Source of the DNA: Prauserella flavalba
Lineage (GTDB): Bacteria > Actinomycetota > Actinomycetes > Mycobacteriales > Pseudonocardiaceae
Length of the DNA: 64,000 nt
NCBI RefSeq assembly: GCF_003202235.1
Contig: NZ_MASU01000012.1
Coordinates: 62,001 to 126,000 of the forward strand
Direction of reading: 5' to 3'
Below the pieces are notes generated by a model. The model was not told where the DNA came from, did not search any database, and was given only the letters and a program-made list of their open reading frames with translations. Of the stretch, positions 7,052 through 29,258 are shown in pieces (position 1 is the first letter of the stretch; each line of letters begins with the position of its first letter). The translations under genes were made by a program, and so were the position numbers.

Positions 7052-7071
7052 ATATACCCCCGCGGGTATAT
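7052..7071. promoter_or_regulatory. CstR/CsoR-type operator, perfect palindrome
   Basis: ATATACCCCCGCGGGTATAT has perfect 8-bp arms around a 4-bp centre. It sits in an AT-rich promoter region in front of the 54-residue Cys-rich gene on the minus strand. The arms match the G/C-tract operators of CsoR-family repressors. This is the best-formed of eight similar sites in the window. Confidence 0.75.
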
Positions 7072-7289
7072 CTGAGTGTGCTGGTGGGGCACTGCCTCCG
7101 CACGTCGCCGGACATCGCCCGTGCACGGCAGGGACAGCGACGGGGCCAGCGCGAACCGGTTGCGCGGCCAGACGTGTCTGACATCGGGCCGCTCGGGCAG
7201 GCAACGCTCGGTGCTGGCGACGGCCACATGGCCTCGCTTTCCCGCTCACGACATCACCGGCCTACCTGCGGCCGAGCTCCGGGGTATCC

Positions 7290-7850
7290 TCAGCCGGACG
7301 TTCGGGGCGGCTCCTTGCAGCGCTGATGGGCATGTGGGCCGCCCTTGACGAGCAGGTGCAGCGAGACCGTGGTACTCGGCGCGGCGCAGGCGGCCTGGTG
7401 AATGTCTCCCGCCGCGAAGAGATACCCGCCGCCGACGGGGGCGAGTTGTTCGTCGAAGAGGGTCAGCTGATCCGGGCAAGTGCCGCGGTAGCGGCGGTTA
7501 CTCTCTACCCCCATGACGGTCACCGCCGCGCCCCAGCTGTCGTGGTCATGGGGCGGGGTTTGCTGGCCCGGGGTCATCACCACGGCCGCCAGTGACCACC
7601 CTGCCGGGTCGTCGTGCACACAGTGCACCCCGTACGAACCGTCTTGATCCGCCTCGCGTAGAAAGGCAGGCATATCTGTGTGCGCTGCGGTGTCGACCGC
7701 GAAGTCGGCGAGCAAGCGCAGTACCCTGCGTCGTGCGGTCATGTCCGCCTCGACCGTGGCCAGCGGGCCCGCCGCGGCCACCAGCCGCGCCAGGCGTGCC
7801 TTGAAACAGTGTGACTCGCTCACCTGCGGTGGCGACGTCGAATCGGGCAT
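7290..7850 (-). CDS. Cysteine-dioxygenase-like cupin (thiol dioxygenase)
   Basis: A 186-residue cupin resembling cysteine dioxygenase and other thiol dioxygenases, non-heme Fe(II) enzymes that oxidise a thiol to a sulfinate. Metal ligands are visible as His101 and His103 in PPHDHDSWG and His151 in GDIHQAAC. An Arg-rich strand RRYRG follows the first motif. Start ATG at 7850 has GGGAGGTGAGG upstream. It lies 65 bp downstream of a CstR-type repressor gene on the same strand, so both are probably one operon controlled by the site at 8219. The substrate (cysteine, 3-mercaptopropionate or another thiol) cannot be told. Confidence 0.75.
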   Translation of the reverse strand: MPDSTSPPQVSESHCFKARLARLVAAAGPLATVEADMTARRRVLRLLADFAVDTAAHTDMPAFLREADQDGSYGVHCVHDDPAGWSLAAVVMTPGQQTPPHDHDSWGAAVTVMGVESNRRYRGTCPDQLTLFDEQLAPVGGGYLFAAGDIHQAACAAPSTTVSLHLLVKGGPHAHQRCKEPPRTSG

Positions 7851-7915
7851 CCGGTCCTCACCTCCCGCGGGATGCCGTCACATGCGCACTGGAGCTTTCC
7901 TGACGCGCGCCCGCG

Positions 7916-8197
7916 TCACGCGAGTCGCAGGAACAGTTTCTCCAGTTGGGCGACATCCGCGCGTGCCTCGGCGGACGCCGTGTCGTCGCCGTTGCCGGCG
8001 AGCACGCACTGCCGCATCCCGGTCGCGATGATCTTGAATCCGGCTCGATCGAGCGCGCGTGAGGCGGCGGCGAGCTGCGTGATCACCTCCTGGCACTCAC
8101 GGCCGTCTTCGATCATCTGGATGACCCCGCCGACCTGCCCCTGAATGCGCCGTAGCCGCACCAGCACGTCGGCGAGGATTTGCTTGTCCATCTCCAC
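7916..8197 (-). CDS. cstR: CstR-like persulfide-sensing repressor (CsoR family), copy 1
   Basis: A CsoR-family four-helix repressor. It shows [16 protein letters not shown] and two cysteines, C35 in GRECQEV and C64 in GMRQC. Copper-binding CsoR has a His four residues before the second Cys; here that position is Gly60, so the Cu(I) site is missing. This Cys pair without His is typical of CstR, which forms di- or trisulfide links when persulfide appears. The GTG start at 8197 follows AAGGTGG; ATG two codons later is an alternative. It reads toward the cupin thiol dioxygenase and away from a truncated mrp gene. Confidence 0.82.
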
Positions 8198-8218
8198 GCT
8201 GCTACCCCACCTTCTGTG

Positions 8219-8234
8219 ATACCCCCTAGGGTAC
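8219..8234. promoter_or_regulatory. CstR-type operator between cstR copy 1 and mrp remnant
   Basis: ATACCC-CCTA-GGGTAC, one mismatch from a perfect palindrome. It lies 22 bp upstream of the cstR start, which fits autoregulation. Confidence 0.7.
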
Positions 8235-8242
8235 CATTTCAT

Positions 8243-9197
8243 GTGCGGTGCTCCGGCTGCCCGCTTCGCGAGCGAATGCGGGCCGACGTCACGGCAGCCG
8301 CCGCCGCGGTGCCCGGGGTCAGCGGCGTCGAGGTCACCTTCACGACGCTGTCCGAGCGGGAGCGCCTGGCACTCGCGCAGCAGCTGCGCAGCCCACGCGG
8401 CATGTCGCTCGGCGCGGACACCCGCGTCTACGCCGTCGCCAGCGGCAAAGGGGGCGTGGGCAAGTCATCCGTCGCGGCCAACCTCGCGGTGACGCTCGCC
8501 CGCTCGGGCAGCAGCGTCGGGCTGCTGGACGCGGACGTATGGGGCCACTCGGTGCCGCGGCTGTTCGGCGTGCGGCGCAACCCGGTCGCACTCAAGGGGC
8601 TGATGCTGCCGGTCGAGGCCCACGGCGTGCGGCTGATGTCGGTCGGCTTCCTCGTCAGCGAGGGCGAACCGGTCATCTGGCGCGGGCCCATGCTGCACAA
8701 GGCGCTGGAGCAGTTCCTCACCGACGTCCACTGGGTGAGCTCGACGTGCTGCTGCTGGACCTCCCGCCCGGCACCGGGGACGTCACGCTGTCCCTGCTGG
8801 AGCTGGTGCCGCAGGCCGCCCTGCTTGCCGTGACCACGCCGCAGCCTTCCGCGCAGACCGTCGCCTCGCGCGCCGGCCGCATGGCCAGGGACATGCGCAT
8901 GCCGATCGCCGGGGTGGTGGAGAACATGAGCGCGCTGGCCTGCGCGGGCTGCGGCGAGCGGACCGCGCTCTTCGGGGCGGGTGGCGGGCGGCTGCTCGCC
9001 GACGAGCTCGGCACCGAGCTACTGGGCCGGTCCCGCTCGACACCGCGCTGCGCGAGGCGGGTGACGCCGGCGTTCCCGTGGTGGTGCGCGATCGCGGCGC
9101 CGCCTCCACCGTCGCCCTGACGGAGGTCGCGCACCGCCTGCCCGTGATGCGGCGAAGCCTGGCCGGGCTCCCACTGCCGCTGACGGTCGTGGGCTGA
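8243..9197 (+). pseudogene. Mrp/ApbC-type P-loop ATPase, 5' truncated and twice frameshifted
   Basis: Mrp proteins are P-loop ATPases linked to iron-sulfur cluster carriage. The N-terminal MIP18-like domain is cut: the reading starts at [17 protein letters not shown], only the second half of that domain. The deviant Walker A is [12 protein letters not shown] and the Switch motif is LDLPPGTGDVTL. A base is missing at the G run 8733-8735, moving the frame from FLTDVHW to GELDVLLLDLPPG. Another is missing at 9029-9030, after which VPLDTALREAGDAG resumes. It abuts the cstR operator with no ribosome site, so a rearrangement probably removed its start. Confidence 0.75.
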
Positions 9198-9208
9198 GCG
9201 GGGACGTC

Positions 9209-28049: not shown

Positions 28050-28058
28050 ACCACCTTT

Positions 28059-28074
28059 GTACCCCGAGGGGTAT
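28059..28074. promoter_or_regulatory. CstR-type operator before the PIG-L gene
   Basis: GTACCC-CGAG-GGGTAT, one mismatch from the consensus. It lies next to the PIG-L ribosome site. Confidence 0.7.
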
Positions 28075-28137
28075 ATGGCCGCCAGCGGAGCGGCGCGTGC
28101 GATGAGCCGGGAATGCCAACCGCCACAAGCCCGTTAC

Positions 28138-28155
28138 GATACCCGAGGGGGTATC
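28138..28155. promoter_or_regulatory. CstR-type operator before thioredoxin
   Basis: GATACCC-GAGG-GGGTATC has perfect 7-bp arms. It ends 17 bp before the thioredoxin start and 79 bp from the site serving the divergent PIG-L gene. Confidence 0.78.
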
Positions 28156-28171
28156 AAAGACTAGGAGGTGC

Positions 28172-28537
28172 ATGATGGCGACCATCGAGCTGACGACCGA
28201 CAACTTCAACGACAGGATAGGCGGGGACGGTATTGTGCTGGTCGACTTCTGGGCGGCGTGGTGCGGACCCTGCCGCATGTTCGCGCCGGTGTTCGAGCGT
28301 GCGTCCGAGCGTCACGAGGATGTCAGGTTCGGCAAGGTGGATACCGAGGCGCAACCGGAACTGGCGGCGAGGTTCGGCATCTCGTCGATCCCGACGTTGA
28401 TGATCGCTCGTGATGGCGTGGTGCTGTACGCGCAGCCCGGTGCGCTCCCGGAGAGTGCGCTCGAGGAGCTGATCGCCAAGGCCCGCGAGGTCGACATGGA
28501 CCAGGTTCGGCAAGAGCTCGCCGAACAGCGGCAATGA
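28172..28537 (+). CDS. trxA: Thioredoxin
   Basis: A 121-residue thioredoxin with active site WCGPC (Cys31, Cys34) in VDFWAAWCGPCRMF and cis-Pro in ISSIPTLMIARDG. The C-terminus is slightly extended and charged. AGGAGGTG precedes two adjacent ATGs (28172, 28175). A perfect CstR-type operator lies directly upstream. Thioredoxin reduces protein persulfides and polysulfides, so control by a persulfide sensor makes physiological sense. It is probably not the housekeeping copy. Confidence 0.92.
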   Translation: MMATIELTTDNFNDRIGGDGIVLVDFWAAWCGPCRMFAPVFERASERHEDVRFGKVDTEAQPELAARFGISSIPTLMIARDGVVLYAQPGALPESALEELIAKAREVDMDQVRQELAEQRQ

Positions 28538-28590
28538 GGATCTGATCCCGATCTTCAGTGCGGGCACCGACACCCGGAGGGGAGTCTTCG

Positions 28591-29175
28591 TTGGACAGCA
28601 CAGCATGGGACCGGCGCTACACCGGGGCCGAGTTCGAATGGACCACCGAGCCGAACCGGTTCGTCGTCGAGCAGACCACCGGGTTGACACCCGGGCGGGC
28701 GCTGGACCTGGGAACAGGAGAGGGCCGCAACGCCGTCTGGCTGGCCGAACAAGGCTGGACGGTCAGCGGGGTCGACTTCTCGACCGTCGGGCTGGACAAG
28801 GCGCGCCGGCTCGCGCACGCGCGGGACGTCCGGGTCGACTGGACGCTGGCCGACGTGCGCGACTACCAGCCCGAACCGTCGGCGTTCGCTCTGGTGCTCG
28901 TGGCCTACCTGCACCTGCCCTCGGCCGAGCTCCCCCGCGTGCTCGACCGGGCCGCCTCGGCCGTGGCCACCAAGGGCACCCTGCTGGTGATCGGCCACGA
29001 CTTGACCAACCTCACCGCGGGCGTGGGCGGGCCGCCCGACCCCGACGTGCTCTACACACCCGAGGGGATCGTCGCAGCACTGCCCGCCTTGCGCATCGAG
29101 CGGGCTGAGCGGCTTCGCCGACCACTACAGCAGGGTGAGGCCATCGACACCCTGGTCCGCGCAACGCGCACCTGA
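28591..29175 (+). CDS. Class I SAM-dependent methyltransferase (TehB/thiol-type)
   Basis: About 194 residues from TTG at 28591, with GGAGGGGAG upstream; a GTG at 28558 is an alternative. The SAM motif is RALDLGTGEGRNAVWLAEQGW, then VSGVDFS. The opening AWDRRYTGAEFEWTTEPNRFV resembles methyltransferases that alkylate small thiols, tellurite or hydrogen sulfide. It follows thioredoxin by about 50 bp and may share its promoter. Methylation of sulfide or a thiol would suit the island, but the substrate is not shown. Confidence 0.8.
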   Translation: MDSTAWDRRYTGAEFEWTTEPNRFVVEQTTGLTPGRALDLGTGEGRNAVWLAEQGWTVSGVDFSTVGLDKARRLAHARDVRVDWTLADVRDYQPEPSAFALVLVAYLHLPSAELPRVLDRAASAVATKGTLLVIGHDLTNLTAGVGGPPDPDVLYTPEGIVAALPALRIERAERLRRPLQQGEAIDTLVRATRT

Positions 29176-29242
29176 CACGCGTTCGCCCGCAACCACAGCA
29201 CGACCAGTCGGCGAGGTCGTGGATAACAGATGCAGCGAAAAT

Positions 29243-29258
29243 ATACCCCGCTGGGTAT
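29243..29258. promoter_or_regulatory. CstR-type operator before rhodanese and persulfide dioxygenase 2
   Basis: ATACCC-CGCT-GGGTAT is a perfect palindrome in an AT-rich context (flanked by AAAAT and TTTT). It ends 14 bp before the rhodanese start. Confidence 0.78.

Follow-up and report, generated by a model that had tools for sequence, protein, structure and literature searches.

Introduction

In Streptomyces coelicolor the repressor ScCsoR binds ATACC-N6-GGTAT and represses pdo-tauE, a rhodanese gene and its own gene; polysulfide releases it from the DNA, Cys37 being persulfidated and Cys66 being needed (PMC7533328). Here we analyse a stretch of 64,000 nucleotides from Prauserella flavalba (contig NZ_MASU01000012.1, positions 62,001 to 126,000; the window), in which a palindrome of the form ATACCC-N4-GGGTAT, with six-base arms and a four-base spacer (6-4-6), precedes sulfur genes and two CsoR-family repressors, CstR1 and CstR2. 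We read these units as a CstR-type persulfide regulon with one shared operator, and give this reading a probability of about 0.82.

The locus resembles the ScCsoR circuit in having the same 16-bp operator, a two-Cys CsoR-like repressor with the 29-residue spacing of Cys37/Cys66, and a persulfide dioxygenase (PDO), TauE, rhodanese and autoregulation (PMC7533328). It differs in extent: four genes are named for ScCsoR, whereas here there are two repressors and two PDO units, and a site also stands before genes for a 54-residue Cys-rich protein (here SSP54), a PIG-L hydrolase, a thioredoxin with a methyltransferase, a DUF302 protein and a cupin. The TTHA1953 regulon of Thermus thermophilus likewise has a two-Cys CsoR-family repressor, and thioredoxin and methyltransferase targets beside sulfur oxidation genes; unlike ours, its operator TACNNTACNNNNGTANNGTA has no G-tracts and it involves a Sox system, and binding of TTHA1953 was not reduced by NaHS (PMC10318464). 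The SUL modules of Arthrobacter plasmids combine a CsoR-type gene, a small hypothetical protein, rhodaneses, a dioxygenase, TauE and DUF302, although the passage on them mentions no operator (PMC6305408). In the annotation of pA40H2 an SSP54 match lies between a CsoR-type gene and an MBL (metallo-β-lactamase) gene, and no PIG-L is found among the 14 annotated features shown. The copper CsoR of Streptomyces lividans has the operator consensus ATATACCCCTNAGGGGTATAT, which shares TAC/GTA arms with G-tracts; it differs in its spacer of five (TAC-X9-GTA), its response to copper and its csoR and copZA targets (PMC3902906). A search of the open-licence literature, mostly titles and the starts of abstracts, turned up no paper that places PIG-L or a small Cys-rich protein among CstR targets. 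The core of the regulon is known from ScCsoR; within the reach of this search, the inclusion of SSP54, PIG-L and the methyltransferase is new.

Operator sites in the window and the genome

The window contains three perfect sites (7054, 28139 and 29243) and four with one mismatch (8219, 21812, 21945 and 28059). The first-pass annotation had counted eight 6-4-6 sites; seven stand, and the eighth, at 10631, has three mismatches. Its positions were mostly exact, 7052 and 28138 being off by two bases and one, and the genes behind the sites are those it named, except that the label ‘MshB/Mca-like’ is unspecific and the identity of the cupin is weak. Sites and genes are as follows (operators from pattern scans, no strand assigned; evidence for genes in brackets).

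6855..7019, minus strand: SSP54, 54 residues, six Cys and one His, zinc-ribbon-like spacing by eye (alignment)
7054..7069: operator, perfect, 34 bases before SSP54
7290..7850, minus strand: cupin that may be a thiol dioxygenase, behind cstR1 on the same strand (weak similarity)
7916..8191, minus strand: CstR1 repressor, 91 aa, Cys33 and Cys62, no His (PF02583 match, alignment)
8219..8234: operator, one mismatch, between cstR1 and a divergent Mrp-like remnant
10631..10646: degenerate operator, three mismatches, 36 bases before cstR2
10683..10946, plus strand: CstR2 repressor, 87 aa, Cys35 and Cys64, Gly at the His-ligand position (PF02583 match, alignment)
21812..21827: operator, one mismatch
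21945..21960: operator, one mismatch, 80 bases before tauE
22041..22823, plus strand: TauE sulfite exporter (Pfam)
22851..23168, plus strand: single-domain rhodanese (Pfam)
23171..24565, plus strand: MBL and rhodanese domains, PDO by architecture (Pfam; no NCBIfam model at cut-off)
24594..24995, plus strand: DUF302 protein (Pfam)
27315..28049, minus strand: PIG-L hydrolase of a distinct subfamily (Pfam, alignment)
28059..28074: operator, one mismatch, 9 bases before PIG-L
28139..28154: operator, perfect, 17 bases before thioredoxin
28172..28537, plus strand: thioredoxin, Cys31 and Cys34 (Pfam, NCBIfam)
28558..29175, plus strand: TehB-like SAM (S-adenosylmethionine) methyltransferase behind thioredoxin, probably starting slightly inside this frame (NCBIfam scores all below cut-off)
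29243..29258: operator, perfect, 14 bases before rhodanese
29273..29596, plus strand: single-domain rhodanese (NCBIfam rhodanese models, below cut-offs)
29626..31008, plus strand: second MBL-rhodanese protein, PDO by architecture (NCBIfam models below cut-offs)

Comparison of spacers from 0 to 12 in the window gave sites with at most one mismatch only at a spacer of four, bar one spacer-9 entry, which is site 21812 re-read with a second GGGTAG. At up to three mismatches 21 sites were observed against 8.7 expected by chance, hence site 10631 alone is no proof of an operator. It is best read as a decayed one. Two syntenic loci of relatives (L084 and L086; L and C numbers denote our loci and contigs) carry a one-mismatch site at the matching position, before a 91% identical cstR2. 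In locus L092, whose cstR2 is 97% identical, the site is degenerate in the same form as here.

Across the whole genome (8.09 Mb, 39 contigs) 4 sites are perfect and only 12 have one mismatch or none, as compared with 0 and 1 for the reversed pattern. Seven of the 12 lie in this 22-kb part of the window, three on contig C30 and two on C5, so that all fall in three regions, each holding cstR and PDO genes; an equal frequency of sites elsewhere in the genome, which the first-pass annotation had named as an outcome that would count against the regulon, is not what we find. The order on C30 is site, SSP54, site, cstR, site, rhodanese, PDO, TauE, and on C5 cstR is flanked by two sites and followed by PDO, TauE and SSP54. 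For the window sites at 21.8-29.2 kb the nearer cstR gene is some 11 kb away or farther. Across the loci the operator arms are largely kept, while spacer and flanks vary. None of the genes directly behind the 12 genomic sites was recognised as a copper gene. In every counted 6-4-6 scan at up to two mismatches the reversed-pattern control was 0 or 1 (within the 200-genome scan described below it was counted for one genome).

The repressors and the copper-type CsoRs

Both repressors match PF02583 (CsoR/RcnR, Trns_repr_metal) with E values of 9.1e-23 and 3.9e-23, and score 45.4 and 41.1 bits against the RicR model, whose cut-off is 175. As the first-pass annotation had stated, each has two Cys and lacks the copper His. 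The Cys are 33/62 and 35/64 (29 residues apart in both), and a Gly stands where the copper-type CsoRs of this genome have His, so that the copper Cys-His-Cys site is missing. Two conserved Cys with no copper His are the marks of the CstR type; a shared operator before rhodanese, dioxygenase and TauE genes is a further one and is present here, the regulation itself being predicted.

There are six CsoR-family genes in the genome: four, all in the three site-bearing regions, have the two Cys without the His, and two have Cys-His-Cys. Each of the four His-less repressors has a 6-4-6 site before its gene, that of cstR2 being the degenerate one. The two Cys-His-Cys CsoRs adjoin HMA copper chaperones, and the 3.2 kb around each contain no 6-4-6 site at up to two mismatches (one at three). 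Five-base-spacer sites with one or two mismatches do occur near both (L205, L206 and L213; contigs C13 and C27). A genome scan for this 6-5-6 form gave seven sites (control 1), one of them 92 bases before a copper-type CsoR, two preceding an MFS gene some 650-700 bases from the second copper-type CsoR, and four without a clear target. A separation of the paralogous repressors by one spacer base is suggestive only, because of these four sites and because loci L036 and L098 in other genomes are exceptions.

SSP54

Relatives of SSP54 were found in 61 of 390 genomes of the same family and, phylum-wide, in 48 of 396, the genome itself being included in both counts; it has three copies, one in each cstR/PDO region. 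In an alignment of 18 members C2, C7, C10, C18, H21, C35 and C37 do not vary. We counted 30 family loci (L111-L140, L112 being the window copy) out of 77 places listed. A site with at most one mismatch lies within 300 bases upstream in 22 of the 30, against none for the reversed control, and in all 22 one site is 30-46 bases before the start (17 of them perfect). Six of the 30 loci, the window copy among them, are 91-100% identical to the window's protein; among the diverged loci the site is present in 17 of 24. Outside the family, 10 of 29 new loci (L147-L175, among the matches listed) have such a site, the control again being 0. The operator ends on the SSP54 start codon (GGGTATG) in seven of these 29 loci (L148, L152, L157, L158, L159, L166 and L172), which suggests leaderless transcripts for them.

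When the 18 members were scanned, Pfam families were matched by only one or two members at E 0.079 or worse, and NCBIfam families by one member each (best E 0.0077); the PDB gave no convincing match. SSP54 matches no curated model of a known small zinc-ribbon family. In 39 of the 40 plasmid matches listed no annotated gene underlies the SSP54 match, the gene table being incomplete. Similar small proteins of the CGK-T-W-x-GCG-x-H kind presumably exist in fungi and plants. SSP54 may perhaps bind zinc or persulfide.

The PIG-L subfamily

The window PIG-L belongs to the PIG-L/LmbE superfamily (PF02585, E 1.4e-31, with HPDDE and HPDH motifs). H30, P31, D32, D33, E34, H137, D139 and H140 are each found in 95% or more of the 33 rows of the subfamily (locus L023 was excluded from alignment A4), and by analogy with MshB we take H30, D33 and H140 to be zinc ligands. 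Because H30, D32, D33, H137 and H140 are kept, the protein is probably an active hydrolase with a substrate other than that of MshB or Mca. It may perhaps be a zinc amidase or deacetylase acting on a small thiol or sugar conjugate. Its top sequence match in the PDB is LnmX, on which a literature search found no paper.

Relatives were found in 16 of the 390 genomes scanned in the family and, class-wide, in 15 of 394, this genome being counted both times. Six loci at 80-82% identity all have a perfect site between PIG-L and thioredoxin; their islands are 99.7-100% identical where compared (L016, L083, L084 and L086), together with L021 at 95-97% (L085 is L021 seen again). In the diverged family loci (about 51-65% identity) a site with at most one mismatch precedes either PIG-L or a same-strand upstream SSP54 in eight of ten. 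It stands before PIG-L itself in L079 and, at about 400 bases, in L082, and before the upstream SSP54 in L074, L076 and L077, where the gap between the two genes is less than 100 bases, and in L078, L080 and L081, where it is about 450-540.

Outside the family, a site lies within 500 bases directly upstream of PIG-L in 6 of 14 loci (L192, L195, L197, L198, L199 and L200) and elsewhere in the stretch in five (L191, L193, L194, L196 and L201); next to the site of L193 no regulon gene was recognised. The scan that covered these loci gave 25 sites against 1 control in 21 loci with 239,740 bases. The methyltransferase recurs in L191, L192, L196, L198, L199, L200 and L082, and in L191, L198, L200 and L082 a site immediately precedes it; thioredoxin and DUF302 also recur in the loci of relatives. 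A Rhodococcus plasmid carries PIG-L, a CstR-like gene, DUF302 and SSP54 on one stretch, with two-mismatch sites only. These patterns support the membership of PIG-L in the regulon, and do so over a wider range than the first-pass annotation could show.

Perfect sites in relatives and mobility of the island

The motif search across related genomes that had been suggested earlier found the perfect pattern in 55 of 200 family genomes, this genome included. Among the listed loci fetched by the perfect site alone (L026-L055 and L093-L109), several of them mutually close relatives, 36 of 47 have a regulon gene beside the site. L080, L081, L083, L084 and L087-L092, fetched partly for their sites, are outside this count. 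A wider tally of 120 distinct perfect sites, of which 16 had no regulon gene inside 250 bases, includes loci fetched for SSP54 and PIG-L; it is thereby biased and is not used as evidence. In relatives, genes were named PDO, Mrp, SulP, HMA, P-type ATPase, ArsR and SRPBCC by their similarity to genes of the window or by eye.

The sulfur island is 99.7-100% identical across genomes of three genera (L016, L083, L084 and L086), L016 from Amycolatopsis roodepoortensis being 99.98% identical to L084 of the window's genus, which indicates recent horizontal spread. A 6.3 kb stretch of the window is 97.7% identical to a genome of another genus, with a recombinase at its edge. This large serine recombinase stands beside a membrane gene (window 4366-5952 and 5949-6749), presumably of a kind seen in actinomycete mobile elements, and the region is probably a mobile element boundary. 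A near-DNA plasmid search with 21.8-31.1 kb gave one match with 7% covered.

Other genes in the window

The cupin has matches to mercaptosuccinate and cysteine dioxygenases (E 6.8e-6 and 1.2e-5), and none in Pfam or NCBIfam searches. Between the two cstR genes lie broken reading frames, named by eye:

8241..9198, plus strand: Mrp-like ATPase remnant, frame broken (named from the translation)

The Mrp-like frame and a SulP-like frame (9209-10564) are broken at several points, and the matches to these genes are likewise split in L092, which is 97.7% identical. Farther along, an ArsR-family regulator adjoins a P-type ATPase (window 36812-39255), and a second ArsR-family regulator adjoins a pyridine nucleotide-disulfide reductase (window 47591-49494); both pairs add to the stress-resistance genes.

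Weighing the regulon against other explanations

The union of these separate units in one persulfide regulon, as first proposed from the sequence alone, is well supported by the rarity of the operator, the gene set behind it, the missing copper His and the near-identity to the ScCsoR operator, and strongly so for work on sequence only. It was observed directly that the sites exist and are rare, that they recur ahead of these genes and that the copper ligand is missing. Several findings weigh on the other side. The operator before cstR2 is degenerate. Sites with at most one mismatch are missing from 8 of the 30 family loci and 19 of the 29 outside-family loci of SSP54; of the eight, six lie close to TauE, rhodanese or PDO, another has a site with two mismatches, and around the last nothing was recognised. 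For PIG-L, family locus L075 has no site and that of L073 is 6.7 kb off, and 8 of the 14 outside-family loci have no directly upstream site (L190, L202 and L203 have none at all). The nearly identical island copies count as one event. Finally, in 11 of the 47 loci fetched by a perfect site a regulon gene is absent (names by eye), and the operator is hence not exclusive: the exceptions are ArsR-like and SRPBCC-like pairs (L026-L028 and L051), an HMA chaperone (L036), a P-type ATPase (L098), small secreted proteins (L039 and L040) and three unclear cases (L043, L050 and L094). At position 1501 of L026, L027, L028 and L051 the sequence before the ArsR-like and SRPBCC-like genes (named by eye) is ATACCCATATGGGTAT; the same arms are in unrelated use there.

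A copper regulon of the CsoR/RicR type, with SSP54 as a metallothionein-like copper binder, was considered and rejected as very improbable. The S. lividans copper operators are close in sequence (PMC3902906), perfect 6-4-6 sites precede the chaperone of L036, which has a five-base-spacer copy next to it, and the ATPase of L098, and six Cys would suit a copper binder; however, the four CstR-group repressors lack the His ligand, directly behind the 12 genomic sites no copper gene was recognised, and the enzymes encoded there are of kinds that act on persulfide and sulfite. The copper-type CsoRs of this genome, moreover, lack 6-4-6 sites nearby at up to two mismatches, and sites near them have the five-base spacer reported in S. 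lividans. The view that the sites arose by chance as G/C-rich palindromes, or are repeats that travel with a mobile island, was likewise rejected and deserves hardly any credence: the island is mobile, as the identity of L016 and L084 and the serine recombinase at one edge indicate, but the reversed controls are near zero, the arms are kept while spacer and flanks differ, and SSP54 and PIG-L genes of other families carry the site at roughly 45-65% identity.

The first-pass annotation connected PIG-L, as an MshB/Mca-like enzyme, with mycothiol persulfide chemistry; on this reading PIG-L would be a second MshB or Mca, raising mycothiol or clearing mycothiol persulfide. Actinomycetes make mycothiol, the domain and motif residues are kept and the gene is linked to persulfide genes. 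The connection is not supported, and we regard this role as unlikely. On NCBIfam models the protein scores 77.8 bits for BshB2 (the best), 63.8 for BshB1, 56.5 for MshB (cut-off 224.35) and 52.0 for Mca (cut-off 277.15), all far below cut-off. The genome has a separate MshB that scores 338.2 bits, above cut-off, against 48.9 for the window PIG-L on the same model, on which three further PIG-L genes of the genome also outscore it. Near the active site Thr135, two residues before HPDH, is kept in at least 95% of the 33 rows, as opposed to Tyr in the four genomic paralogs; and in the open-licence literature the term ‘mycothiol persulfide’ occurs in one paper, on another subject. A division into two regulons that share one site is also rather unlikely; in it CstR1 and CstR2 would answer different reactive species, or one of the two would be a redundant copy from the island. 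The presence of two cstR genes in the window and of a further two in the genome, with the degenerate cstR2 operator, points that way; against it, all four CstR proteins have the same Cys pair and lack the His.

Model for the persulfide response

By analogy with ScCsoR, reduced CstR1 and CstR2 would bind the predicted 16-bp 6-4-6 palindrome and repress seven transcription units. Reactive sulfane sulfur would then modify the Cys pair (33/62 or 35/64), the repressor would leave and the genes would be turned on; both the binding and the release by polysulfide are carried over from the Streptomyces protein. From what is known of the families, the MBL-rhodanese proteins would convert persulfide sulfur to sulfite, which TauE would export, while thioredoxin would strip protein persulfides and the cupin would lower free thiols. 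SSP54, the PIG-L subfamily, the TehB-like methyltransferase and DUF302 would be further members.

Since the same operator precedes both families in distant relatives, SSP54 and PIG-L probably take part in reactive sulfur handling. A more speculative proposal, which we hold only tentatively, is that they form a new Actinomycetota persulfide-handling pair, in which SSP54, as a tiny zinc-ribbon-like protein, carries or buffers sulfane sulfur and PIG-L, as a zinc hydrolase, acts on a low-molecular-weight persulfide or its conjugate, with copper and persulfide responses parted by one spacer base (6-5-6 versus 6-4-6). Mycothiol persulfide is one candidate for the PIG-L substrate.

The regulon links two uncharacterised families to a defined signal and operator, which makes both directly testable. 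The one-base difference in spacing also points to a simple way in which cross-talk between paralogous repressors might be prevented.

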